Source of the DNA: Psychroflexus sediminis
GTDB lineage: Bacteria; Bacteroidota; Bacteroidia; Flavobacteriales; Flavobacteriaceae
Assembly: GCF_900099815.1 (NCBI RefSeq)
Contig: NZ_FNCW01000013.1
Location: 1 to 64,000, forward strand
Direction of reading: 5' to 3'
DNA length: 64,000 bases
Position numbers and translations under genes: made by a program. The notes beneath the pieces were generated by a model, which saw only the letters and a list, made by a program, of their open reading frames with translations, did not search any database and was not told where the DNA came from. Positions 2,746 through 32,673 of this stretch are shown piece after piece. Each line of letters begins with the position of its first letter. Positions within the stretch are counted from its first letter, which is position 1.

Positions 2746-3695
2746 ACAAATTACGTGTACTTTTTATGGGAACCCCCGAATTTGCTGTTGGGATCTTAGA
2801 CCACCTGGTAAACTCTCAAGTCGATATAGTTGGCGTGGTTACAGCTCCTGATAAACCGGCTGGCCGGGGTAAACGCTTACAGGCTTCCGCTGTAAAGCAA
2901 TATGCTGAAAAACAAAATATTGAGGTTTTACAGCCGACCAATCTTAAATCTGAAGAATTTCAGGAAGATTTGAAGCGTTTAAATCCGAATTTGATGGTAG
3001 TTGTGGCCTTCAGGATGTTACCTAAAAAGGTCTGGAGTTTTCCCGAATTTGGTACTTTCAATCTTCATGCCTCCCTGTTACCACAATACCGTGGGGCTGC
3101 CCCTATCAATTGGGCAATTATCAATGGTGAAAAAGAAACTGGAGTCACGACCTTCTTTATCGATGAACAAATTGATACCGGTAAAATTATTGATTTTAAA
3201 ACTTTACCTATAAAACCTGAAGATGATGTAGAAAGTCTTCATGATAAATTAGTAACACTAGGAGCTGCATTGGTACTTGAAACTGTCAAGTCTATTGAAA
3301 AAGGAAAAACGGAGGCTAAATCTCAAAAACATGAGATGACTTTAAAATCTGCTCCGAAACTAACCAGAGAAAATACAAAGATCAACTGGAATCAATCAGC
3401 TCAAGAAATTATCAATTTTGTAAGAGGCTTAACTCCTTTTCCAACCGCCTGGACAGAGGTGAATATGAATGGTGAGGTTCTAAGAGTGAAAATCTATAAA
3501 GTAGACGCTAGTTTTGAAAATCATGATAAAACTGTTGGGAGTTCCTTCTATAATAAGGAAGAGAAAAATATTTGTGTCGCAGTAAATGATGGCCTTATCC
3601 AGATTAAGGAACTTCAGTTGCCTGGTAAAAAAAGATTGACATCACAGGCTTTGGTGAACGGATTGGGGTGGGATAATGACTACAGATTTATATAA
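2742..3695 (+). CDS. fmt: Methionyl-tRNA formyltransferase
   Basis: A 317-residue enzyme that formylates initiator Met-tRNA from 10-formyl-tetrahydrofolate. The formyltransferase signature is NLHASLLPQYRG (residues 107-118), with catalytic Asn107, His109 and Asp145 in DEQIDTG. The N-terminal Rossmann-type half is followed by an OB-like C-terminal domain after SAPKLTRENTKINW. The length is normal for the family. The ATG overlaps the recQ stop. A weak hairpin follows, then the promoter of the HU gene. Confidence 0.96.
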   Translation: MNKLRVLFMGTPEFAVGILDHLVNSQVDIVGVVTAPDKPAGRGKRLQASAVKQYAEKQNIEVLQPTNLKSEEFQEDLKRLNPNLMVVVAFRMLPKKVWSFPEFGTFNLHASLLPQYRGAAPINWAIINGEKETGVTTFFIDEQIDTGKIIDFKTLPIKPEDDVESLHDKLVTLGAALVLETVKSIEKGKTEAKSQKHEMTLKSAPKLTRENTKINWNQSAQEIINFVRGLTPFPTAWTEVNMNGEVLRVKIYKVDASFENHDKTVGSSFYNKEEKNICVAVNDGLIQIKELQLPGKKRLTSQALVNGLGWDNDYRFI

Positions 3696-3782
3696 AATTT
3701 AAATTTAGATATCAGATATTTAAAAATAATAGCTGGAAAAGCTGTTTTTTCGCCCATTCTACAAGGATTTTATGCGTATTTT

Positions 3783-3813
3783 CTTGCACAGTAATATTTT
3801 CCATATAAATTTG
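3783..3813 (+). promoter_or_regulatory. Probable promoter of the HU gene
   Basis: The -7 element TAAATTTG is at 3806-3813 and an imperfect -33 element (CTTG) at 3783-3786, 19 bases apart, which fits the Bacteroidota TTTG/TAnnTTTG layout. It leaves a short AT-rich leader of about 40 bases before the start at 3861. Confidence 0.6.
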
Positions 3814-3860
3814 TAATGTGTTAATAAAATGTTTAATCAATAAAATCTAAATTTTACATT

Positions 3861-4133
3861 ATGAACAAAACGAATTTAATCGATGCCATGGCAGAAGATG
3901 CTGGCGTTACTAAAGCTGAAGCTAAAAAAGCATTAGAGTCTTTTCTGGAAAACGTAGAAGGCGCTCTTAAAAAAGGAGATCGCGTTTCTTTAGTTGGATT
4001 TGGATCTTGGTCTGTATCTAAAAGAGCTGCACGTGAAGGTAGAAACCCACAAACCGGTAAAACTATCAAAATCGCTGCTAAAAATGTAGTAAAATTCAAA
4101 GCTGGATCTGACTTGCAAAAAGCGGTCAATTAA
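3861..4133 (+). CDS. HU family DNA-binding protein
   Basis: A 90-residue nucleoid protein that bends DNA as a dimer. It begins MNKTNLIDAMAEDAGVTK and contains the conserved beta-arm region around GRNPQTGKTIKI, ending in AGSDLQKAVN, all standard for HU/IHF. The length is exactly that of HU. It is transcribed alone: a promoter lies just upstream and a strong terminator just downstream. Confidence 0.96.
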   Translation: MNKTNLIDAMAEDAGVTKAEAKKALESFLENVEGALKKGDRVSLVGFGSWSVSKRAAREGRNPQTGKTIKIAAKNVVKFKAGSDLQKAVN

Positions 4134-4165
4134 GCTAGGAATTTTTACATTTCATTAAAAAATTA

Positions 4166-4194
4166 AAGACCTTTTGTAAAAAGGTCTTTTTTTT
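4166..4194 (+). terminator. Terminator of the HU gene
   Basis: A 10-bp stem, 4166-4175 (AAGACCTTTT) against 4179-4188, with a three-base loop, runs into eight T residues: a classic intrinsic terminator. Confidence 0.9.
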
Positions 4195-4235
4195 ATTATA
4201 ATTTTAATTAAATTGTTAAATCTAAAACCCTGACT

Positions 4236-4799
4236 ATGGAAAGACTGCAACCTAACCGAGGGGATGTATTAGTATCTGAACCTTCTACGATTGGTGATTT
4301 AACGTTTAATCGATCGGTTATACTCCTAGCACATCTGGATACAGAAGGAGCTGTCGGTTTTATCATCAATAAGCCATTGGATTTTAATCTTGAAGAATTA
4401 ATTCCGGAGATAGATGAAACTTTTAAAATTTTTAATGGGGGTCCAGTCGAGCAAGAAAACCTTTATTTTATCCATGACGTTCCCCATCTGATTTCAAATA
4501 GTGTTGAAATAAAAGATGGTATTTACTGGGGAGGTTCCTTTGAAACCATTGTGAATTTGATTAATACCAGGAAAATAACTTCAGAAAACATCAAATTTTT
4601 TCTAGGCTATTCGGGCTGGGATGCTTCTCAACTTGAATCTGAAATCGATTTGAATACTTGGATTATAGATTCAGATACCAAGGCCAATGATATTCTTAAT
4701 TCTCTTAAAGATGGCCGATACTGGCAGGAAAAGATGAAAAACCTTGGAGGCCAATACCTATTATGGTCTAATGCACCGGATAATCCAAACTATAACTAA
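4236..4799 (+). CDS. YqgE/AlgH family protein (UPF0301)
   Basis: A 187-residue protein of the YqgE/AlgH family, whose biochemical role is not established. The hallmarks are the start LQPNRGDVLVSEPS, the VGFIINKPL segment, FNGGPVEQ and FFLGYSGWDASQLESEI. The length is normal. It converges with the class IV aminotransferase gene, overlapping it by four bases tail to tail, so they are not co-transcribed. No signal peptide is seen, so it should be cytosolic. Confidence 0.92.
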   Translation: MERLQPNRGDVLVSEPSTIGDLTFNRSVILLAHLDTEGAVGFIINKPLDFNLEELIPEIDETFKIFNGGPVEQENLYFIHDVPHLISNSVEIKDGIYWGGSFETIVNLINTRKITSENIKFFLGYSGWDASQLESEIDLNTWIIDSDTKANDILNSLKDGRYWQEKMKNLGGQYLLWSNAPDNPNYN

Positions 4800-5650
4800 A
4801 CTTCCACTAGCCTAGCTTTCGCATTAAGCTTTCCTATTAAATTTTTAGCTAAAGTGTTAGTGTAGGTCTTCTTTCTATATTTAGTGATGGATTGTATACC
4901 TTGTATCGCGTTTGTATAAAAGATTTCATCTGCTTTTTGCAGTTCAAATGGCGAAATCGACTCTTCGGTTATGGTATAATCTTCCGTCTTCTTTAAAATT
5001 TCTATAAGTTGCTTCCGAATAATACCATTAAGGCAGCCATCCGATAAAGGCGGCGTTTTAATTGCAGAGCCTTTTATAACGAAAATATTACCATTGGTGA
5101 CTTCAAGAACAGATTTTTTCTCGTTGATAAGAAAACAATTATCAAAGTCATTTTCTTTGGCGTAAACACCCGCCAGAATATTGACTAGTTTATTATTAGA
5201 CTTGATTGTGGAAAGCATTCCTGACTGAATGTAGTGGTCTTTAAATAATTCAACTTCACAAGGCTTATCATTTAAAGTGAAAAAAGCGTTATCTAATGGC
5301 CTTGTTGAAATAATGTATCCAATCGTATTATCTTCTGGGATGTAATACCCCCCTTCAGATCTGTGGATGTTTATCCTTACTCTCACTGGTGCTTTTTCTA
5401 AATCATTGGCTTTGATTAATTCAATAATTTTTTCTTCCAAAAATTCGGGTGAAAATTCCATAGGAATATGCATTCTCAAAATACGCATGGAAGACATTAA
5501 CCTAAAATAATGAGACTCCCAAAACATGATTTTGGAATTGATAACTCTCAGGGTTTCAAAAAGTCCGTCACCATAAGTATAGCCTCTATTATTGAGATTT
5601 AAAGATGAATTTTCAATAGATTGTATTTCTCCGTTTATAAAAACGTTCAT
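4796..5650 (-). CDS. Class IV PLP-dependent aminotransferase (possible aminodeoxychorismate lyase)
   Basis: A 284-residue fold-type IV PLP enzyme, related to branched-chain aminotransferases, D-amino-acid aminotransferases and 4-amino-4-deoxychorismate lyase (PabC). The fold signature NNRGYTYGDGLFETLRV is at residues 20-36. The Lys in STIKSNN (about 150) is the likely Schiff-base residue, and SDGCLNGIIR is the usual C-terminal phosphate-binding segment. The substrate cannot be fixed from the sequence. Its size and the absence of a classic BCAT signature fit PabC, but no folate gene is next to it. It lies ten bases after the START-like gene on the same strand, so the two are probably one transcript. 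Confidence 0.85.
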   Translation of the reverse strand: MNVFINGEIQSIENSSLNLNNRGYTYGDGLFETLRVINSKIMFWESHYFRLMSSMRILRMHIPMEFSPEFLEEKIIELIKANDLEKAPVRVRINIHRSEGGYYIPEDNTIGYIISTRPLDNAFFTLNDKPCEVELFKDHYIQSGMLSTIKSNNKLVNILAGVYAKENDFDNCFLINEKKSVLEVTNGNIFVIKGSAIKTPPLSDGCLNGIIRKQLIEILKKTEDYTITEESISPFELQKADEIFYTNAIQGIQSITKYRKKTYTNTLAKNLIGKLNAKARLVEV

Positions 5651-5659
5651 AGTAATTTA

Positions 5660-6052
5660 TTATGATGATCCTAAAATTTGCTTCAAGTCTGACACTGTAT
5701 TTTCCCACAACATCTTGCCTTCATCCACTTCATCCTCCTCGGCAAAATCGGTAATCATGAGCGATACATCTTTGGTAATTTCATCGACTTGAATCTTCAT
5801 CTCAAAATAATAATTTAAACCTTCTTCCTCATCTGCAGTCCACCTCAATTTCATGCGATCGTCTGTTTTTTTGGAAAGTAACTTAGCCTGTTCTTCACTT
5901 CCTTCCCAAATAAAGGTGAAAAGTTCGCCCCTGGAGTTCACATTATCAGCAAACCACTCGCTTAAACCAGATGGAGTTGATATGTATTGATACAATAAGG
6001 ATGGAGAGGCTTGTATTGGAAATTCTAATTCATATTTGACTTTATCACTCAT
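5660..6052 (-). CDS. START-like domain protein
   Basis: A small (130-residue) protein with a START/SRPBCC-like fold. It begins MSDKVKYELEFPIQASPSLL and contains GLSEWFADNV, a pattern seen in AHSA1/START-like ligand-binding proteins. The ligand and role are unknown. An upstream in-frame ATG at 6079 would add nine residues, but the family normally begins at MSDKVKYE, so the ATG at 6052 is preferred. It is the first gene of a two-gene unit with the downstream aminotransferase. Its 5' side faces the tRNA-Met gene. Confidence 0.8.
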   Translation of the reverse strand: MSDKVKYELEFPIQASPSLLYQYISTPSGLSEWFADNVNSRGELFTFIWEGSEEQAKLLSKKTDDRMKLRWTADEEEGLNYYFEMKIQVDEITKDVSLMITDFAEEDEVDEGKMLWENTVSDLKQILGSS

Positions 6053-6136
6053 CTTAATCAATTTTAGATTGAAAAGCAATATATGGATAATTGGGTGAAG
6101 AATAAAAATTTTAATTGAAATTATTCCATAAACAAA

Positions 6137-6167
6137 TTTGCGAAAGCAAAAGATAATATTATCTTTG
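6137..6167 (+). promoter_or_regulatory. Promoter of the tRNA-Met gene
   Basis: TTTG at 6137-6140 and TATCTTTG at 6160-6167 are separated by 19 bases, an exact match to the Bacteroidota sigma-A promoter pattern, about 15 bases before the tRNA. Confidence 0.85.
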
Positions 6168-6181
6168 CAATCCTTTAAAAA

Positions 6182-6255
6182 GGCGTGGTAGCTCAGTTGG
6201 TTAGAGCGTCGGATTCATAACCCGGAGGTCACGAGTTCAACTCTCGTCCACGCTA
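6182..6255 (+). tRNA. tRNA-Met (CAT anticodon)
   Basis: A 74-base cloverleaf. The acceptor 6182-6188 pairs with 6248-6254 (first pair a G-T wobble), the D stem is GCTC/GAGC, the anticodon CAT is at 6216-6218, and the T arm is ACGAG/CTCGT. The anticodon stem ends in an A-C mismatch next to the loop and lacks the three G-C pairs of initiator tRNA, so it is not the initiator type. Elongator Met is the likeliest identity. An Ile2 tRNA with lysidine at C34 also has a CAT gene anticodon and is not excluded. No CCA is encoded. Confidence 0.93.
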
Positions 6256-6258
6256 CAA

Positions 6259-6286
6259 AAAAACCCTGCATTTTGCAGGGTTTTTT
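6259..6286 (+). terminator. Terminator after tRNA-Met
   Basis: AAACCCTGCA pairs with TGCAGGGTTT around a three-base loop at 6271-6273, followed by a T run. Confidence 0.9.
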
Positions 6287-6347
6287 AATTTAAGAGGGTT
6301 CTCACTCAATTAAGCATTATTTTCAGGGCTTAAGTAAATTGTTCAAA

Positions 6348-6554
6348 TTACTTACTAGATTTTTTCTTATTATCTTTCTTTTTTTTGCCTTTTTCAGCTT
6401 TCTCTTTAGCCAATTGTTTATCACGCTTAGCTTTGGCTTTAATTTCTCTGTTGAAGTGAACTCCATCACCATGCATATCGGCTAGATGCACCTGCTCTTC
6501 ACTTTTACTCGCATCCTCCCAGGGCTTGATGTGTGTTTTATCTTTTAAACTCAT
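6348..6554 (-). CDS. Small lysine-rich protein of unknown function
   Basis: A 68-residue protein with a mixed N-terminal half (KPWEDASKSEEQVHLADMHGDG) and a C-terminal half made almost wholly of Lys, Glu and Ala ending in KKKDNKKKSSK. The composition suggests a helical, very basic tail that could bind nucleic acid, but no known domain is recognised. The ORF uses ATG and sits between the tRNA terminator and an envelope-protein gene on the same strand. The specific N-terminal half argues that it is a real gene, not a low-complexity chance frame. Confidence 0.65.
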   Translation of the reverse strand: MSLKDKTHIKPWEDASKSEEQVHLADMHGDGVHFNREIKAKAKRDKQLAKEKAEKGKKKKDNKKKSSK

Positions 6555-6717
6555 ATTTTTTTTTGTTTAAATATAAAGTTAATCTTACTTTACACAACAT
6601 AATAAAGAGTTAAAAGGGTTAAAAACTGAGAATTCGATAGCTTTTTGACCAAATTTTCTAAGACTATAGTTAAAACAGATTAAATATCAAACCCAGCAGT
6701 GGGTATTCAAATTGGTA

Positions 6718-7329
6718 TTACTCAATTTTAACTAATGTTGATTTACCAGACTTATTCTTTTTAATAAATAAGGATTCAGAAACTTGTTTGTAGGATATTT
6801 TAGGTGGATTTTTTATATAGGATTCATCAAGGATTATATTTTGAGGTTCTTTGGATAAGTAGGCTTCCAAATCGCCTTGTTTATTGATCAAAACTTCAAA
6901 ATAGTTGTAATACACCACTTTCTTACCCAAAGCTTTATTTTCACCCGCTACTTCTTTAATCAGTTGCAAAACAATGGCTTTGCCCTTCTTGAAATTTTTT
7001 GCATTTAAAAACTGGGGTACTATAACTTCGTTTCCTGAGGTATCGATATAACCAAAATAGGATATCCCCTCTTTTTCCATTTCTATTAAACATCTTCCAT
7101 CACTAAATAAGGGATAAAAGCCGTTATCTGTTTGGTTTTCAACAAGATCGGATCTATAATCAATAACTATAGCGCCCTCTCTGTCGATAAAAGCCCATCG
7201 ATCATTTTTTTGTACAGCAGCCAAATCTTCATGAAACGGAGATACATAGTCTAAATTATCTAGGGTTTGAGATAAGCTTAAAAAAGGAAGCATTAAAATA
7301 ATGCAACTTATCCATTTAAATTTTGCCAT
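6718..7329 (-). CDS. Secreted WG-repeat protein
   Basis: A 203-residue exported protein. It has a cleavable signal peptide (MAKFKWISCIILMLPFLSLSQ, cut near LSLSQ). Two WG-like repeats are visible: NDRWAFIDREGAIVI around residue 41 and YFGYIDTSGNEVIVPQF around 90. WG repeats form beta structures and occur in many Bacteroidota envelope proteins of unknown role. The C-terminal third has no recognised domain. It is monocistronic as far as can be seen; no clear promoter match was found. Confidence 0.75.
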   Translation of the reverse strand: MAKFKWISCIILMLPFLSLSQTLDNLDYVSPFHEDLAAVQKNDRWAFIDREGAIVIDYRSDLVENQTDNGFYPLFSDGRCLIEMEKEGISYFGYIDTSGNEVIVPQFLNAKNFKKGKAIVLQLIKEVAGENKALGKKVVYYNYFEVLINKQGDLEAYLSKEPQNIILDESYIKNPPKISYKQVSESLFIKKNKSGKSTLVKIE

Positions 7330-7479
7330 TATTTTGGTATTTTAAGATTTATATCATAAATATACGAACCTATTATGGCTTCTAAAATGATATTAATCAT
7401 GGTTTAGGGTAATTATGACAAATTTAGAAGAGTCTCTGCTTTTGAAAATTTAAAAATTATGATACAAATCTAGTGGGGT

Positions 7480-8853
7480 TTAGCCAGAGACATGAATCAT
7501 CAATTTTTCTAAATTGCAGTTGCTTTGCTCGCCAGTAGCCATATTTTTAAGATTATACACTTGATTTTGCATTTCGCGACCACCAGCTAAAACCACGTAA
7601 GGAATAGAGCGTTTATCGGCATAAGACATCTGTTTTTTCATCTTTGCAGCATCTGGATAAAGCTCTGCTGCAATATGATTTTTTCTTAATGCTTGTATTG
7701 CTTTTAAGGCATATAAAGCTTCTTCATCTCCAAAGTTGATGAATAATAATTTTGTGGTCTCTTCTACAGTTTTTGGAAATAGGTTCAATTCTTCCAAAAC
7801 CAAATAAATTCGATCCAAACCAAAGGAAATACCAACGCCACTCATATTTTTTAAGCCGAAGATGCCAGTCAAGTCATCATATCTTCCACCTCCCCCGATG
7901 GAACCCATTTTTACATTGGGAGGAGCAGAAATTTCAAAAATAGCTCCTGTGTAATAATTGAGTCCGCGTGCAAGTGTGACATCCAGATCTAATTTTGCGG
8001 TTTTAAGCGGTAATTCCTGTAAGGCTTTCTGAATAAATTCAAGTTCTTCTATTCCTTTTTGACCGATTTTAGAATGGGACAATAAAGATTTTAAAAGATT
8101 GATTTTTGTTTCGAAATCATCTTTCAAATTAAAAATAGGCTTGATGTTTTCTATGGCAGATTCAGAAATACCTTTCTCCAGCATTTCTTTTTTAACTCCT
8201 TCTTCTCCAATTTTATCGAGTTTATCCAAGGCCACTGTAAAATCGATAAGTTTATCGCTTTCTCCAATCACTTCAGCGAGTCCGGAAAGAATTTTTCGAT
8301 TGTTGATTTTGATGCTGACACCTTTTAGATTCAAACTGGTAAATACAGCATCATAGAGCTGGATAAACTCGACTTCCTGCCACAAACTATCGCTACCAAT
8401 CACGTCGGCATCGCATTGCGTAAATTCTCTAAACCTTCCTTTCTGTGGACGATCTGCTCTAAATACATTTTGAATTTGGTAGCGCTTAAAAGGAAAATCA
8501 ATATCGTTTTGATGCTGAACCACATACCTGGCAAAAGGAACCGTAAGATCGTACTTGAGGGCTTTTTCCGTAATAGAGGATGATAATCTTAAACTATCTT
8601 TCTTTTCATAAACAGCAGTATCAACTTTCTTTAAAAAATCCCCGGAATTTAAAATTTTAAAAATCAGGCGATCACCTTCATCTCCATATTTACCCATTAA
8701 GGTATCAGAGTTTTCGAAAGTAGGGGTTTCAATAGGTTGAAAACCAAAATCTTTGAAATGCTGTTGAATCGTGGAAATGATATAGTTTCGCTTGCTGACT
8801 TCTATCGGTGAAAAATCTCTGGTTCCTTTGGGTATTGACGCCTGACTTGCCAT
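7480..8853 (-). CDS. hisS: Histidyl-tRNA synthetase
   Basis: A 457-residue class II aminoacyl-tRNA synthetase that charges tRNA-His. It begins with IPKGTRDFSPIE, contains the motif 2 region FREFTQCDADVIGS, and the histidine-binding signature LARGLNYYTGAIFEI followed by GSIGGGGRYDDL. The anticodon-binding domain follows (LLFINFGDEEALYALKAIQALRK onward). The length is normal. It lies 36 bases downstream of the DUF6495 gene on the same strand, so the two are probably co-transcribed. Confidence 0.96.
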   Translation of the reverse strand: MASQASIPKGTRDFSPIEVSKRNYIISTIQQHFKDFGFQPIETPTFENSDTLMGKYGDEGDRLIFKILNSGDFLKKVDTAVYEKKDSLRLSSSITEKALKYDLTVPFARYVVQHQNDIDFPFKRYQIQNVFRADRPQKGRFREFTQCDADVIGSDSLWQEVEFIQLYDAVFTSLNLKGVSIKINNRKILSGLAEVIGESDKLIDFTVALDKLDKIGEEGVKKEMLEKGISESAIENIKPIFNLKDDFETKINLLKSLLSHSKIGQKGIEELEFIQKALQELPLKTAKLDLDVTLARGLNYYTGAIFEISAPPNVKMGSIGGGGRYDDLTGIFGLKNMSGVGISFGLDRIYLVLEELNLFPKTVEETTKLLFINFGDEEALYALKAIQALRKNHIAAELYPDAAKMKKQMSYADKRSIPYVVLAGGREMQNQVYNLKNMATGEQSNCNLEKLMIHVSG

Positions 8854-28527: not shown

Positions 28528-29208
28528 TTAGATGCAGTTTTTTAAGCACAGGTTTAATGTTGACTTCAAGGCATACATTTCATCTATATTTTGTAGTAAC
28601 TTTTGATTGATTTCAAGTTCAATACCCAGATAGTGTTCCGGGAACTTTTTCCGTAAACTTGTTGTAAATCCGTCTGCTTTTCCCAAATACGGGTAATTCA
28701 TTCGAGCTCTGAACTGACCAAAGCGTGTATTCAATTCTTTTTTAAAGCGTTTTGCCCAGTCTTTCTCAGCTTTTCGTTTGGGATCGTACAAAATCCCAAA
28801 TTCTGCTTCCCGAACTCTGCCGTTCAAAACAGGAGTGAAACTATGTACCGATACATGCAAAACCTGTTCTTCAGCGATGATTGTGTCTTCTATTTTCTGC
28901 TGAATTTGATGTCGATAGGATTCATAAAAATCAATTATAAGACGATTTTTCTCTGCTTTGACCATATGTTTTGAGATACTGGAAAATAAGTGAGGATGAT
29001 GCAGTGACCTGTTCACTTCGATTAAAAGTCTGCTCCAGGGGTAATGCGAGGAATAATCCGCTAAATCCTGCAGGGATTCGTAAACCTCAAAAGCACCGAG
29101 GTCGAAGCCTTCATGGGTTTCCAGGCGATGCTGTTCACTTTCAAACCGGGTTTGGTAGTGGGATGGCAGCAAATTAGCAGCATGTTCGCAAGTCAGGATC
29201 AATTTCAC
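28528..29208 (-). CDS. N-formylglutamate amidohydrolase family protein
   Basis: A 226-residue enzyme of the N-formylglutamate amidohydrolase fold. The signatures are LILTCEHAANLLPSHYQ (metal-binding His), ETHEGFDLGAF (second His), SRLLIEVNRSLHHPHLFS, and VLHVSVHSFTPVLNGR. The classical enzyme ends histidine breakdown, but no hut gene is nearby. Here it overlaps a GCS2 ligase by four bases, so it more likely hydrolyses an amide made by the cluster. The substrate is not known. See the findings. Confidence 0.85.
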   Translation of the reverse strand: MKLILTCEHAANLLPSHYQTRFESEQHRLETHEGFDLGAFEVYESLQDLADYSSHYPWSRLLIEVNRSLHHPHLFSSISKHMVKAEKNRLIIDFYESYRHQIQQKIEDTIIAEEQVLHVSVHSFTPVLNGRVREAEFGILYDPKRKAEKDWAKRFKKELNTRFGQFRARMNYPYLGKADGFTTSLRKKFPEHYLGIELEINQKLLQNIDEMYALKSTLNLCLKNCI

Positions 29209-30428
29209 GGTAAAAACAATTCGTTTTTGGATAAGCTGTCACCGAGTTTATGATAGACTTTCAGAATATTTACTTCAGAAAAGTCCGCGTCAACTGCTTT
29301 TAAAATTCTGGTAGATAAACTCCCCTGTTTTAAAATCAAACCAATAGCATCAGCATGTCTGTCGCTCATTCTTGAAGAAACCTTGTCAAATAGATGTTTG
29401 AGAACTCCTTTTGCAGGCATGGATTTTGCCTTTATTCCAAATAATCCCAGGTAAGCTTCATTAGAGATGACCGCTTCTTCTGCATACTCGATACTATCAT
29501 TCAAGATCTCAAAAAGCGGAACTTCATGCCAGGCTTTCTGTTCTTCCAAAGGGGTATAGGTTTCATGGATTAAATCCTTTAAAATTTCAACACTGAAACT
29601 GGCTATAGCCACATCAGCCAGAGGGCATTCCTGTAAATCCAGTACCCTGATTTCGATGGCATTTCTGTCAAATCTGGCAATAGCTCCTCTGGAATTCAGG
29701 AAATGATGTTCTAAAATTTCATCTGTATCGAAATCTGCAATTGCTGCATTAATAGGATCAAAAATCTTTGTCTTATAGGCTTCATAGTTAAACACCTGTT
29801 CAGGAATCACCTTCCCGGTCATTTCTGGTATTTGCTTCTGATTGGTGAGATACAATTTCATCCTGGCATCCATATATCCTTCAAACTTGCCGTCTAAAAT
29901 CGGTGAACTCGCGCTTAAGGCTGGTAAAATGGGCAGCAAAATGCGTATCGCGGCATGTAGTTTTTCAAATTCTGAATCATCGTAAAAGGGTAAATTGATG
30001 TGCATGCTCTGCACATTGGACCATCCGTGACCTCGACAATCAAAAATTCTGTTGTAAAGCGCATAGATTTCACTATAAGAATGCTGCCACAACTTCATCT
30101 CCAGTTCCGAATTCATCAGTGGATGGGCCGCTGAAGGCCACAGACGCCAATTTCGGGCCTGAAGCAGTTGGTTGATTTCGAGTATGTTTTTATGAAAGTT
30201 TTGATCCAGCGCATTTAAATCTGTGACGGGACCATTGGTTTTCAATTCTACCACATGCGCAGCTAACTCATTACTCCATTCAATAGAACCGTTATCCACA
30301 TCAGAAACAATGCTTCCCGTTTTGAGCTTCATCAATTCATCTACAGAAGCCTGGATTTTGCCGGTTGAAGCATGCACAAGCATGTATTCCAACTCTATAC
30401 CGAATACATCAAAGAGGTGATATTTCAT
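29205..30428 (-). CDS. Glutamate-cysteine ligase family 2 (GCS2) amide ligase
   Basis: A 407-residue carboxylate-amine ligase of the GCS2 fold. It begins VFGIELEYMLVHASTG, where the two Glu residues are metal ligands, and contains MHINLPFYD and the basic NRNAIEIRVLDLQECPLADVA segment (here DRNAIEIRVLD). GCS2 enzymes join a carboxylate to an amine with ATP. YbdK-type members make gamma-glutamylcysteine weakly, but others make unrelated amides. Glutathione synthesis is unlikely, given bshA and no gshB here. It overlaps its neighbours at both ends, so the three genes form one translated unit. Confidence 0.85.
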   Translation of the reverse strand: MKYHLFDVFGIELEYMLVHASTGKIQASVDELMKLKTGSIVSDVDNGSIEWSNELAAHVVELKTNGPVTDLNALDQNFHKNILEINQLLQARNWRLWPSAAHPLMNSELEMKLWQHSYSEIYALYNRIFDCRGHGWSNVQSMHINLPFYDDSEFEKLHAAIRILLPILPALSASSPILDGKFEGYMDARMKLYLTNQKQIPEMTGKVIPEQVFNYEAYKTKIFDPINAAIADFDTDEILEHHFLNSRGAIARFDRNAIEIRVLDLQECPLADVAIASFSVEILKDLIHETYTPLEEQKAWHEVPLFEILNDSIEYAEEAVISNEAYLGLFGIKAKSMPAKGVLKHLFDKVSSRMSDRHADAIGLILKQGSLSTRILKAVDADFSEVNILKVYHKLGDSLSKNELFLP

Positions 30429-31885
30429 AGCTCCTGTTTAGAATTAAGACGGTTTTTCAAAGCCTGAAGAATTGTTGTGTATACGGCATCTCCATAAAGC
30501 CCGTCTTCCACTCCAAAATCTATATTTGGATTGTCATTGATTTCGATGACAAGTGCTTTTCCATCAACCTCTTTCACATCTATGCCATAAAGCCCTTTCC
30601 CCATGATTTTAGCTGATTTCAAAGCGGCTTTTATCACAGGCTCCGGGACTTCTTCAACAGCAATACAGTCTGCATTTCCATCCTGATCTCCTTTTTTGTT
30701 TGCAGTCCAGTTATAAATTTGCCAATGCCCTTTGGCCATAAAATAGCGACAGGCATAAAAGGGTTTGGAATCTATAATCCCAATTCTCCAGTCATATTCA
30801 GAAAAGGTGTATTCCTGAGCAATAATGAGATCGGAGGTTTTAAACATCTCTGTGATTAAGGTTTCATATTCTTCTTCCGTTTTCGCCTTTTTTACACCAA
30901 AGGAGAACGTGGAATCAGGGGATTTCAATACACATGGCAATCCCGTGTATTTAAGGACTTCATGTGTATTGTCTTTATGAACAATCATTGTTTTTGGTGT
31001 AGAAATTCCGTTCTTATTCAGCGCCTCAGCCATAAATACTTTATTGCAGCATTTCAAGATGGCATCCGGGTAATCGACAATCGCTAAACCATCCTGCAGG
31101 GCTTTTCTGGCAAAGGTATACGCCTCATTATTGACCTCTGTACTCTGTCTTATAAACAGGGCGTCGAACGAAGAAAGTCTGTATAAATCTTCCGGATAGA
31201 TCAGTTCGACATAGAAATTCATTTTCTCTGCTACATCCATAAACTTTTTCAAAGCCTTTGGATTACTGGGTGGTGCAGGATCGTTTTTTTGTACCAGAAT
31301 CGCTAAATCGTATTCAGATTTATCAATTTTAAGGGTATCGTAGCGCTTTTTAGAAAAATACTGAGAAGCGAAATGATGCATGCTTTCCAAATGATCTTTC
31401 GGGATTTCAGAAAGAGAAATGGCCTTTATCGACTTTATATTCCATTTGGTGGTGTGTTTAAAAATCACTCTAAGGAAGGGAATTTGATAATACCTGAATA
31501 TCAAAGTACTTAATTCCCGATACTTTTGTGCAACATTTTGACCGAAATAGATGCTCAAAGTGAATTCCTGAGACTTAATGGTCTTTAAACTTTTCTGAAT
31601 TTCTTCTTCAAAATCTTCAGAGACGATTTTCACCAGTTTCTTTTCGCCGAGATCTACCAAATTACTTATCGTAGGTATGGAAATATGTCCCCTGGCTTCT
31701 GCCAGTAAGGATACATAATACCCTTTGGATTGATAAGTGTAGGTATCACTCAAATTGAATACCCTTGCATTTTTCAATGCTGTATATTCAGGCTTTATAA
31801 GGTAATCTTGAGAAGTTATAATGGAGGTATTATCCATTACAATTGGCCATTTTTCGGGTTGGCTCACCACAATTAGTTTGTTCAT
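30425..31885 (-). CDS. RimK-like ATP-grasp ligase with RLAN N-terminal domain
   Basis: A 486-residue protein. The N-terminal part (about 1-150) has the pattern of the RLAN domain (NLSDTYTYQSKGYYVSLLAEARGH), described in Iyer and colleagues' survey of amidoligases. The C-terminal ATP-grasp domain has LKSPDSTFSFGVKKAKT, the IIAQEYTFSEYDWRIGIID core and LVIEINDNPNIDFGVED as metal and ATP ligands. RimK relatives add glutamate or other amino acids to peptides, proteins or cofactors. With GCS2 and the amidohydrolase it forms a three-gene set; the product is unknown. It is the first gene of the operon and starts at ATG 31885. Confidence 0.88.
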   Translation of the reverse strand: MNKLIVVSQPEKWPIVMDNTSIITSQDYLIKPEYTALKNARVFNLSDTYTYQSKGYYVSLLAEARGHISIPTISNLVDLGEKKLVKIVSEDFEEEIQKSLKTIKSQEFTLSIYFGQNVAQKYRELSTLIFRYYQIPFLRVIFKHTTKWNIKSIKAISLSEIPKDHLESMHHFASQYFSKKRYDTLKIDKSEYDLAILVQKNDPAPPSNPKALKKFMDVAEKMNFYVELIYPEDLYRLSSFDALFIRQSTEVNNEAYTFARKALQDGLAIVDYPDAILKCCNKVFMAEALNKNGISTPKTMIVHKDNTHEVLKYTGLPCVLKSPDSTFSFGVKKAKTEEEYETLITEMFKTSDLIIAQEYTFSEYDWRIGIIDSKPFYACRYFMAKGHWQIYNWTANKKGDQDGNADCIAVEEVPEPVIKAALKSAKIMGKGLYGIDVKEVDGKALVIEINDNPNIDFGVEDGLYGDAVYTTILQALKNRLNSKQEL

Positions 31886-32000
31886 TTAGGGATTAAAAAA
31901 CCAATCAAAAGTAGTCTAAAATTGAATCCCAATTCAGTTTTGGAAAAAAATAACTGGTAATGTATTTATTATTTTTATTCCGGTCTTAATCCAACAAAAA

Positions 32001-32026
32001 AACTCCCTAGCTTTCGATAGAGAGTT
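32001..32026 (-). terminator. Terminator after the peroxiredoxin gene
   Basis: AACTC at 32001-32005 pairs with GAGTT at 32022-32026, with one mismatch and further pairs inward. On the minus strand a T run follows. Confidence 0.8.
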
Positions 32027-32043
32027 GAATCTGAATACTGATT

Positions 32044-32673
32044 TTATGAGTAAGAAGTCGTTCTTAAATAAGGTTTGATTTCTTTGTAGTTCGGAAACTT
32101 TTCCTTGGCTTCCTCGTTGCTTACCGATGGAGAAATAATGCAATCTTCCCCTTGTTTCCAGTCTGCCGGAGTAGCCAGTTTTTGATTGGCCGTTAATTGC
32201 AGACTATCAATCACTCTTAAAAGTTCGTTGAAATTTCTTCCTGTAGAAGGCGGATAAGTCAGTGTAAGTTTTATTTTCTTATCGGGACCGATCACAAATA
32301 CAGAACGTACAGTCGATTTTTCAGAAGTGTTGGGATGAATCATATCATACAACTCAGCTACTTTTCTGTCTTCGTCAGCAATGATGGGAAAATTGACAGT
32401 TGTATGTTGAGTTTCGTTGATGTCTTTAATCCATTCGTGATGCTCTTTAAGCGGATCTACACTCAAGGCAATCACTTTAACATCTCTTTGATCAAACTCT
32501 TCTTTTAACTGAGCTGTTCTCCCTAATTCAGTAGTACAAACGGGTGTAAAGTCTGCCGGATGAGAATAAATAATCCCCCAGCTTTCGCCTAACCAGTCAT
32601 GAAATGTAATCTTTCCCTGGGTGGTTTCTGCTGTAAAATCGGGTGCGGTATCGCCTAATCTTAAATGTGCCAT
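32044..32673 (-). CDS. Peroxiredoxin, Prx6/1-Cys type
   Basis: A 209-residue thiol peroxidase. The peroxidatic Cys46 lies in HPADFTPVCTTELGR, the Prx6 pattern. RSVFVIGPDKKIKLTLTYPPSTGRN is the conserved middle part. A second Cys near the C-terminus (GEDCIISPS) may act as resolving residue, but the family is normally 1-Cys. It removes peroxides in the cytosol; the reductant is not clear from the sequence. It is monocistronic, with a terminator after it. Confidence 0.93.
   Translation of the reverse strand: MAHLRLGDTAPDFTAETTQGKITFHDWLGESWGIIYSHPADFTPVCTTELGRTAQLKEEFDQRDVKVIALSVDPLKEHHEWIKDINETQHTTVNFPIIADEDRKVAELYDMIHPNTSEKSTVRSVFVIGPDKKIKLTLTYPPSTGRNFNELLRVIDSLQLTANQKLATPADWKQGEDCIISPSVSNEEAKEKFPNYKEIKPYLRTTSYS

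Follow-up and report, generated by a model that had tools for sequence, protein, structure and literature searches.

The 64,000-nucleotide stretch of Psychroflexus sediminis DNA analysed here (contig NZ_FNCW01000013.1, positions 1 to 64,000; hereafter the window) carries on its minus strand a cluster of three genes, coding for a RimK-like ATP-grasp ligase combined with an RLAN domain (RLAN-RimK), a carboxylate-amine ligase of the GCS2 family, and a hydrolase resembling N-formylglutamate amidohydrolases (FGase; Table 1). These genes can plausibly be regarded as an operon for making and recycling a small N-capped peptide, in which the ATP-grasp core would extend a capped amino acid, a reading to which we lean without great confidence. 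It draws on the gene order, the co-occurrence and mutual exclusion of partner genes, conserved residues, and the glutamate-cysteine ligase (GCS) fold of the second ligase.

The partner rules emerge from a phylum-wide sample of 395 genomes, 44 of which contain RLAN. Orthologs of the GCS2 ligase (E < 1e-80) occur in exactly 30 of the 395 genomes, and every one of them lies directly downstream of RLAN-RimK, so the conservation of gene order across the phylum, for which the sequence-only reading had proposed a check, was indeed found (30/30); the other 24 of the 54 matching genomes gave E values of 5e-7 or weaker and were not counted. Of these 30 GCS2-type genomes, 21 have an FGase ortholog, each directly after GCS2. 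In most GCS2-type genomes outside the family of the window, the set contains a C39-type cysteine peptidase as a fourth gene. Its orthologs (E < 1e-90; of the 67 genomes matching at E 0.001, the other 41 reached 2e-8 or weaker, with partial matches) were detected in 26 of the 395 genomes, each directly upstream of RLAN-RimK at 75-200 bases from the RLAN domain, and the residues Q8, C14, H170, and D188 are kept in all 14 aligned members. The C39 gene is present in 26 of the 30 GCS2-type genomes, and the four without it all belong to the family of the window. Within this family, none of the 16 genomes searched (12 of them with RLAN) yielded a C39 ortholog with the profile that did match in the 395-genome search, and the window represents the form without this gene. 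Among the 30 GCS2-type genomes, 17 contain both hydrolases, nine only C39, four only FGase, and none lacks both. One locus (L120, genome G235) shows split frames in RLAN-RimK and GCS2, for which either gene decay or a sequencing error would account.

A second form of the system, found in 12 genomes, has a GNAT acetyltransferase placed ahead of RLAN-RimK in a single protein of about 640-730 residues, the GNAT part being recognized by similarity in 10 genomes and by length in the other two. None of these 12 genomes has GCS2, C39, or FGase orthologs, and a DUF3335 peptidase is absent from all 42 GCS2- and GNAT-type genomes. GNAT and GCS2 are mutually exclusive around one ATP-grasp core. This leaves two of the 44 RLAN genomes, namely G211, which encodes RLAN and RimK as separate genes with a GNAT-DUF3335 fusion alongside, and G424, which has an RLAN fragment below the cut-off. 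A GNAT-DUF3335 gene also adjoins RLAN-RimK in an Azospirillum plasmid record.

A make-and-break pathway is suggested by the facts that in the GCS2 type both ligases always stand together and that one or the other hydrolase may be missing, but not both. GCS2 would activate a carboxylate with ATP, the glutamate side chain being the most likely candidate, and join it to an amino acid, yielding a gamma-glutamyl-capped unit, whose free carboxyl group would in turn be activated by RLAN-RimK for the addition of a further amino acid. Because FGase is found only with GCS2 (21/30 vs 0/12 of the GNAT-type genomes), it most likely hydrolyzes the amide made by GCS2. The C39 peptidase encoded upstream in other Bacteroidota most likely acts on the bond made by RLAN-RimK, either by hydrolysis or by transfer, because C39-type peptidases track RLAN-RimK under either partner, in two subfamilies. 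As each excludes the other, GNAT and GCS2 may perform an equivalent capping of an amine, an acetyl cap from the fused GNAT replacing the glutamyl cap in the second form. The order of the reactions, the assignment of the hydrolases to the two bonds, and the size of the peptide are what we infer here. If the reading of the partner rules is true, GCS2- and GNAT-type organisms would be expected to differ in the cap but not in the extension, and either hydrolase would act on one of the two bonds only. The strict GCS2 partner rule (30/30) and the 380 places at which one genome collection holds an RLAN-RimK relative indicate that the product is probably a metabolite made by many bacteria. It is a more doubtful proposition that Bacteroidota and Pseudomonadota possess a whole, previously unrecognized class of capped peptides. 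One RLAN-RimK core would then accept either of two N-caps, a gamma-glutamyl group supplied by an obligate GCS2 partner or an acetyl group supplied by a fused GNAT, and each bond would have its dedicated hydrolase, FGase for the cap and C39 for the extension. The cap would thereby be exchangeable on a shared metabolite, such as an osmolyte or a signal.

The family assignments of the single proteins agree with the earlier description of an amidohydrolase accompanied by two amide ligases that depend on ATP and differ in fold. All three proteins exceed their Pfam cut-offs. RLAN-RimK matches RLAN (PF14401, E 3.1e-46, 157.2 bits vs a cut-off of 25) and RimK (PF08443, E 2.3e-9, 37.6 bits vs 21), and its residues K282, K321, D365-W366-R367, D436, E448, and N450, which we take to form the ATP/Mg site, are each shared by no fewer than 27 of 28 diverse relatives. 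The GCS2 protein matches PF04107 (E 3.1e-25, 89.6 bits vs 21), and its predicted model (pLDDT 81.8, pTM 0.87) retrieved YbdK (E 3.9e-12) and plant glutamate-cysteine ligase (E 1.8e-9) as best Foldseek hits, with a probability of 1.00. This fold match supports carboxylate-amine ligation as the predicted activity, the fold itself not naming a substrate. FGase matches PF05013 (E 1.8e-17, 64.7 bits vs 28.9), its profile aligns over almost the full length with the solved structure 2odf (Atu2144; E 1.8e-34), and the residues E8, H9, H122, and E199 are invariant among 15 relatives. None of the three proteins reaches any family cut-off in NCBIfam.

Several observations weigh against the capped-peptide reading. 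The predicted structure of RLAN-RimK is too poor (pLDDT 57.7, from a shallow alignment) to show the acceptor site. On a plasmid of Pseudomonas aeruginosa, RLAN-RimK stands alone with no cap enzyme beside it. In a tree of RLAN-RimK (53 rows after removal of duplicates and short rows), two separate origins are required for the GNAT fusions (p-AU 0.032 vs one clade), which speaks for the capped-peptide reading, albeit with long branches in play. A single clade of the GCS2 type, by contrast, is compatible with the tree test (p-AU 0.099), so that a cap swap within one lineage is no more than a possibility. The products of the GNAT and GCS2 forms may be unrelated, and the peptidases associated with them, C39 with GCS2 and DUF3335 with GNAT, are of different subfamilies. 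The likeness of C39 to the leader-peptide peptidases of exporters, as judged from sequence profiles, would fit a ribosomal peptide. Finally, a match to the GshB-like ATP-grasp family PF02955 was present in 21 of the 27 RLAN genomes (of the 44) that were searched for BshC, PF04262, and PF02955, mostly taken as ordinary RimK, and the genome of the window itself contains one strong GshB-like gene, located next to a MATCAP-like one. PA1345, which we take to be the P. aeruginosa relative, is listed in a table of a paper on Cpx binding motifs (PMC12802237).

A rival reading is a role in protein modification, in which RLAN-RimK and GCS2 would add amino acids to a protein, in the manner of RimK on ribosomal protein S6 or PafA with Pup, and FGase and C39 would strip them. 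We regard this as unlikely, even though RimK is the closest ATP-grasp enzyme of known structure by sequence and the same genome has two further ligase-hydrolase clusters, of the RimB-RimK-AstE-like and MATCAP-GshB-like-AstE-like types. The GCS2 model matches PafA and Dop too, but at E 1e-5 it is more distant from them than from YbdK and the plant ligase (4e-12 to 1e-8 over these matches); moreover, RimK and a RimB-family protease are encoded apart from the cluster (L166), and no further neighbor within 8 kb is common to more than 31 of 80 loci, although a target need not adjoin. It is rather improbable that the cluster makes a glutathione-like thiol tripeptide, with GCS2 providing gamma-glutamylcysteine and RLAN-RimK adding the third residue. 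Such a pathway would follow the same two-step logic of a GCS-type ligase and an ATP-grasp enzyme, and a peroxiredoxin gene lies upstream in the window. The GCS2 protein is the sole PF04107 protein of the genome and GshA-type PF04262 occurs in none of the 27 RLAN genomes tested, so there is no other enzyme of those two families for gamma-glutamylcysteine here, and a gamma-glutamyl thiol made by GCS2 stays conceivable. However, the GCS2 protein stays far below the glutamate-cysteine ligase and YbdK models (38.5 vs 249.05 bits for TIGR02048, 58.9 vs 176.4 bits for TIGR02050), 11 of the 30 GCS2-type genomes hold a second, distant GCS2-family match, the GNAT form does without a GCS2 ortholog, and the distance to the peroxiredoxin is not constant. 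In addition, BshC of bacillithiol synthesis is present in all 27 RLAN genomes tested, which makes glutathione unlikely as the main thiol. The view of the sequence-only reading that a glutathione role does not fit the context is supported by the family cut-offs of glutathione enzymes, which are not reached.

A pathway for a ribosomally synthesized and post-translationally modified peptide, in which C39 would trim the precursor and the two ligases decorate it, appears very improbable. The best solved structures for the C39 profile are indeed the peptidase domains of the ComA and PCAT exporters (E 7e-5 to 7e-4), but twelve RLAN genomes of the window's family do without C39, and beyond the four genes no family recurs in more than four of 32 phylum-wide loci among open reading frames (ORFs) of at least 70 amino acids, short precursor genes not being searched for. 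An ABC-type ATPase and an ABC-permease-like ORF, both named by eye, were each found in three of these 32 loci. A role in anti-phage defence was rejected, as a PADLOC search with the three cluster proteins and one C39 peptidase retrieved no family at E 0.01. Neither the RLAN-RimK protein nor the DNA gave a match in the phage and Escherichia coli collections.

The cluster is not a local oddity, but a member of a widespread gene set. Of the 380 RLAN-RimK relatives, 80 loci were kept for comparison, and a GCS2 ORF follows RLAN-RimK in all of them (as a shortened ORF only in L044). FGase follows GCS2 in 78, the loci L028 and L068 ending inside GCS2, and the full three-gene set was verified in these 78 loci. 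The set is also found in Legionella adelaidensis (plasmid records). The earlier proposal of the cluster as a candidate for an undescribed system is not supported as it stands, in view of this distribution, the status of RLAN as a named Pfam family, and the fact that the window contains the C39-less form. Among the papers listed by literature searches, none dealt with this gene combination, as judged by titles. The overlaps of four bases between adjacent genes, already noted in the sequence-only reading, are confirmed by the ORF coordinates at both junctions (29205-29208 between GCS2 and FGase, 30425-30428 between RLAN-RimK and GCS2); with the first possible start codon taken in each of the 78 loci, GCS2 and FGase overlap by 4 bases in 50 loci and by 34 bases in 13. 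The 2.97-Mb host genome has a single match each for RLAN and for GCS2 (PF04107). Its nearest named relatives are Psychroflexus species, the RLAN-RimK of P. aurantiacus reaching 95%. RLAN is patchily distributed even between close relatives, occurring in nine of the 27 genomes of the genus (G000-G026), one of ten others of the family, and none of 23 others of the order. Low dN/dS values relative to locus L012, the only pair usable since dS was saturated in the other comparisons, indicate purifying selection on all three genes (0.05 for RLAN-RimK, 0.17 for GCS2, and 0.18 for FGase).

Table 1. Features of the cluster and its upstream region (positions in the window).
Feature	Position	Strand	Remarks
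FGase-like (N-formylglutamate-amidohydrolase-like) hydrolase gene	28528..29208	-	226 aa, GTG start; PF05013 match, profile match to 2odf, invariant residues
GCS2-family carboxylate-amine ligase gene	29205..30428	-	407 aa; PF04107 match, predicted model, matches to solved structures
RLAN-RimK gene, RimK-like ATP-grasp ligase with an RLAN domain at bases 31379-31810	30425..31885	-	486 aa; Pfam matches, conserved residues
TACTTTTG, Bacteroidetes-type -7 promoter element	31906..31913	-	begins 28 nt ahead of the start codon of RLAN-RimK
Terminator-like hairpin, separating the peroxiredoxin gene from the cluster	32001..32026	-	3 such sites in the scanned stretch vs 3.6 expected by chance: weak by itself

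The three-gene unit looks like an operon of its own behind a conserved promoter-like element. This element, TAnnTTTG, presumably the Bacteroidetes -7 consensus, begins at -27 to -29 relative to the start codon of RLAN-RimK, both in the window and in all six Psychroflexus loci. It occurs within 158 bp in 61 of the 74 loci used for this count (out of 80), vs 9.7% of random 158-mers from the window, and 60 of its 72 occurrences fall between -21 and -40. The peroxiredoxin gene (32044-32673) adjoins the cluster in the window and was considered as an operon member, but it is probably not part of the gene set, because the spacing varies among Psychroflexus loci: in the others that show the gene, the distance between the gene starts is 1.4 to 5.9 kb, and it was not found at locus L012. 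The hairpin between them points the same way, though it is weak evidence by itself. An M14 carboxypeptidase encoded upstream (31/80 loci), an M19 dipeptidase on the opposite strand (19/80), and a GNAT-nitrilase (14/80) were rejected as partners, since each accompanies related genera, as judged from record titles, and therefore probably reflects an inherited neighborhood. The GNAT-nitrilase (PF00583 plus PF00795 in L020, L020:1655-3181) is a fusion whose gene precedes RLAN-RimK in the same orientation, at no more than 350 bp in 11 loci and further away in L025, L082, and L086, and may represent a possible extra partner.

Two other ligase clusters were seen in the same genome. One (L166, G000:C11:72000-80000, 2974-5244) combines a RimK containing Rimk_N, a RimB-family protease (PF05618), and an AstE/AspA-like hydrolase. 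The other (L165, G000:C23:62000-76000, 4598-8517) encodes a MATCAP-like peptidase (PF08014), a GshB-like ATP-grasp protein (PF02955), and an AstE/AspA-like hydrolase on one strand; PF02955 matches as strong as that of L165 (E about 1e-51) occur in three of the 27 genomes tested.

Among known systems, S6 glutamylation by RimK and RimB likewise pairs a RimK-like ATP-grasp enzyme with a hydrolase. However, Rimk_N (PF18030) is absent from the RLAN-RimK of the window at E 0.001, and this protein falls short of the S6 ligase models (64.8 vs 143.4 bits for TIGR00768, 31.9 vs 331 bits for PRK10446). A canonical RimK identity was rejected in view of the genome's own RimK and RimB-family genes elsewhere, and this separate locus makes S6 modification by the cluster unlikely. 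Glutathione synthesis is alike in employing a GCS-fold ligase and an ATP-grasp ligase in two steps, but the cluster proteins remain below the NCBIfam cut-offs for GCS and glutathione synthetase, and BshC accompanies RLAN throughout the genomes tested. FGase shares the PF05013 match and conserved residues with the HutG-type N-formylglutamate deformylases, but has no NCBIfam match, and no histidine-degradation (hut) gene was recognized among the ORFs of the window when their list was read by eye. The N-acetylglutaminylglutamine pathway offers a further comparison, as its synthetase (TIGR03103), which has an asparagine-synthetase-like partner, is a GNAT-ATP-grasp fusion like the GNAT-RLAN-RimK form. 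The RLAN-RimK of the window matches 19 families, but TIGR03103 is not one of them, and it is likewise missing from the 25 listed matches (of 34) of the fusion protein L131. The amidoligase operons reportedly described by Iyer et al. in 2009 contain amide ligases and a hydrolase, as found here, and the cluster probably belongs to this kind of operon; the partner rules for C39, GNAT, GCS2, and FGase come from the present analysis. The closest correspondence in domain architecture is with the RLAN-RimK ATP-grasp family (PF14401 plus PF08443), which the cluster protein shares above both cut-offs.

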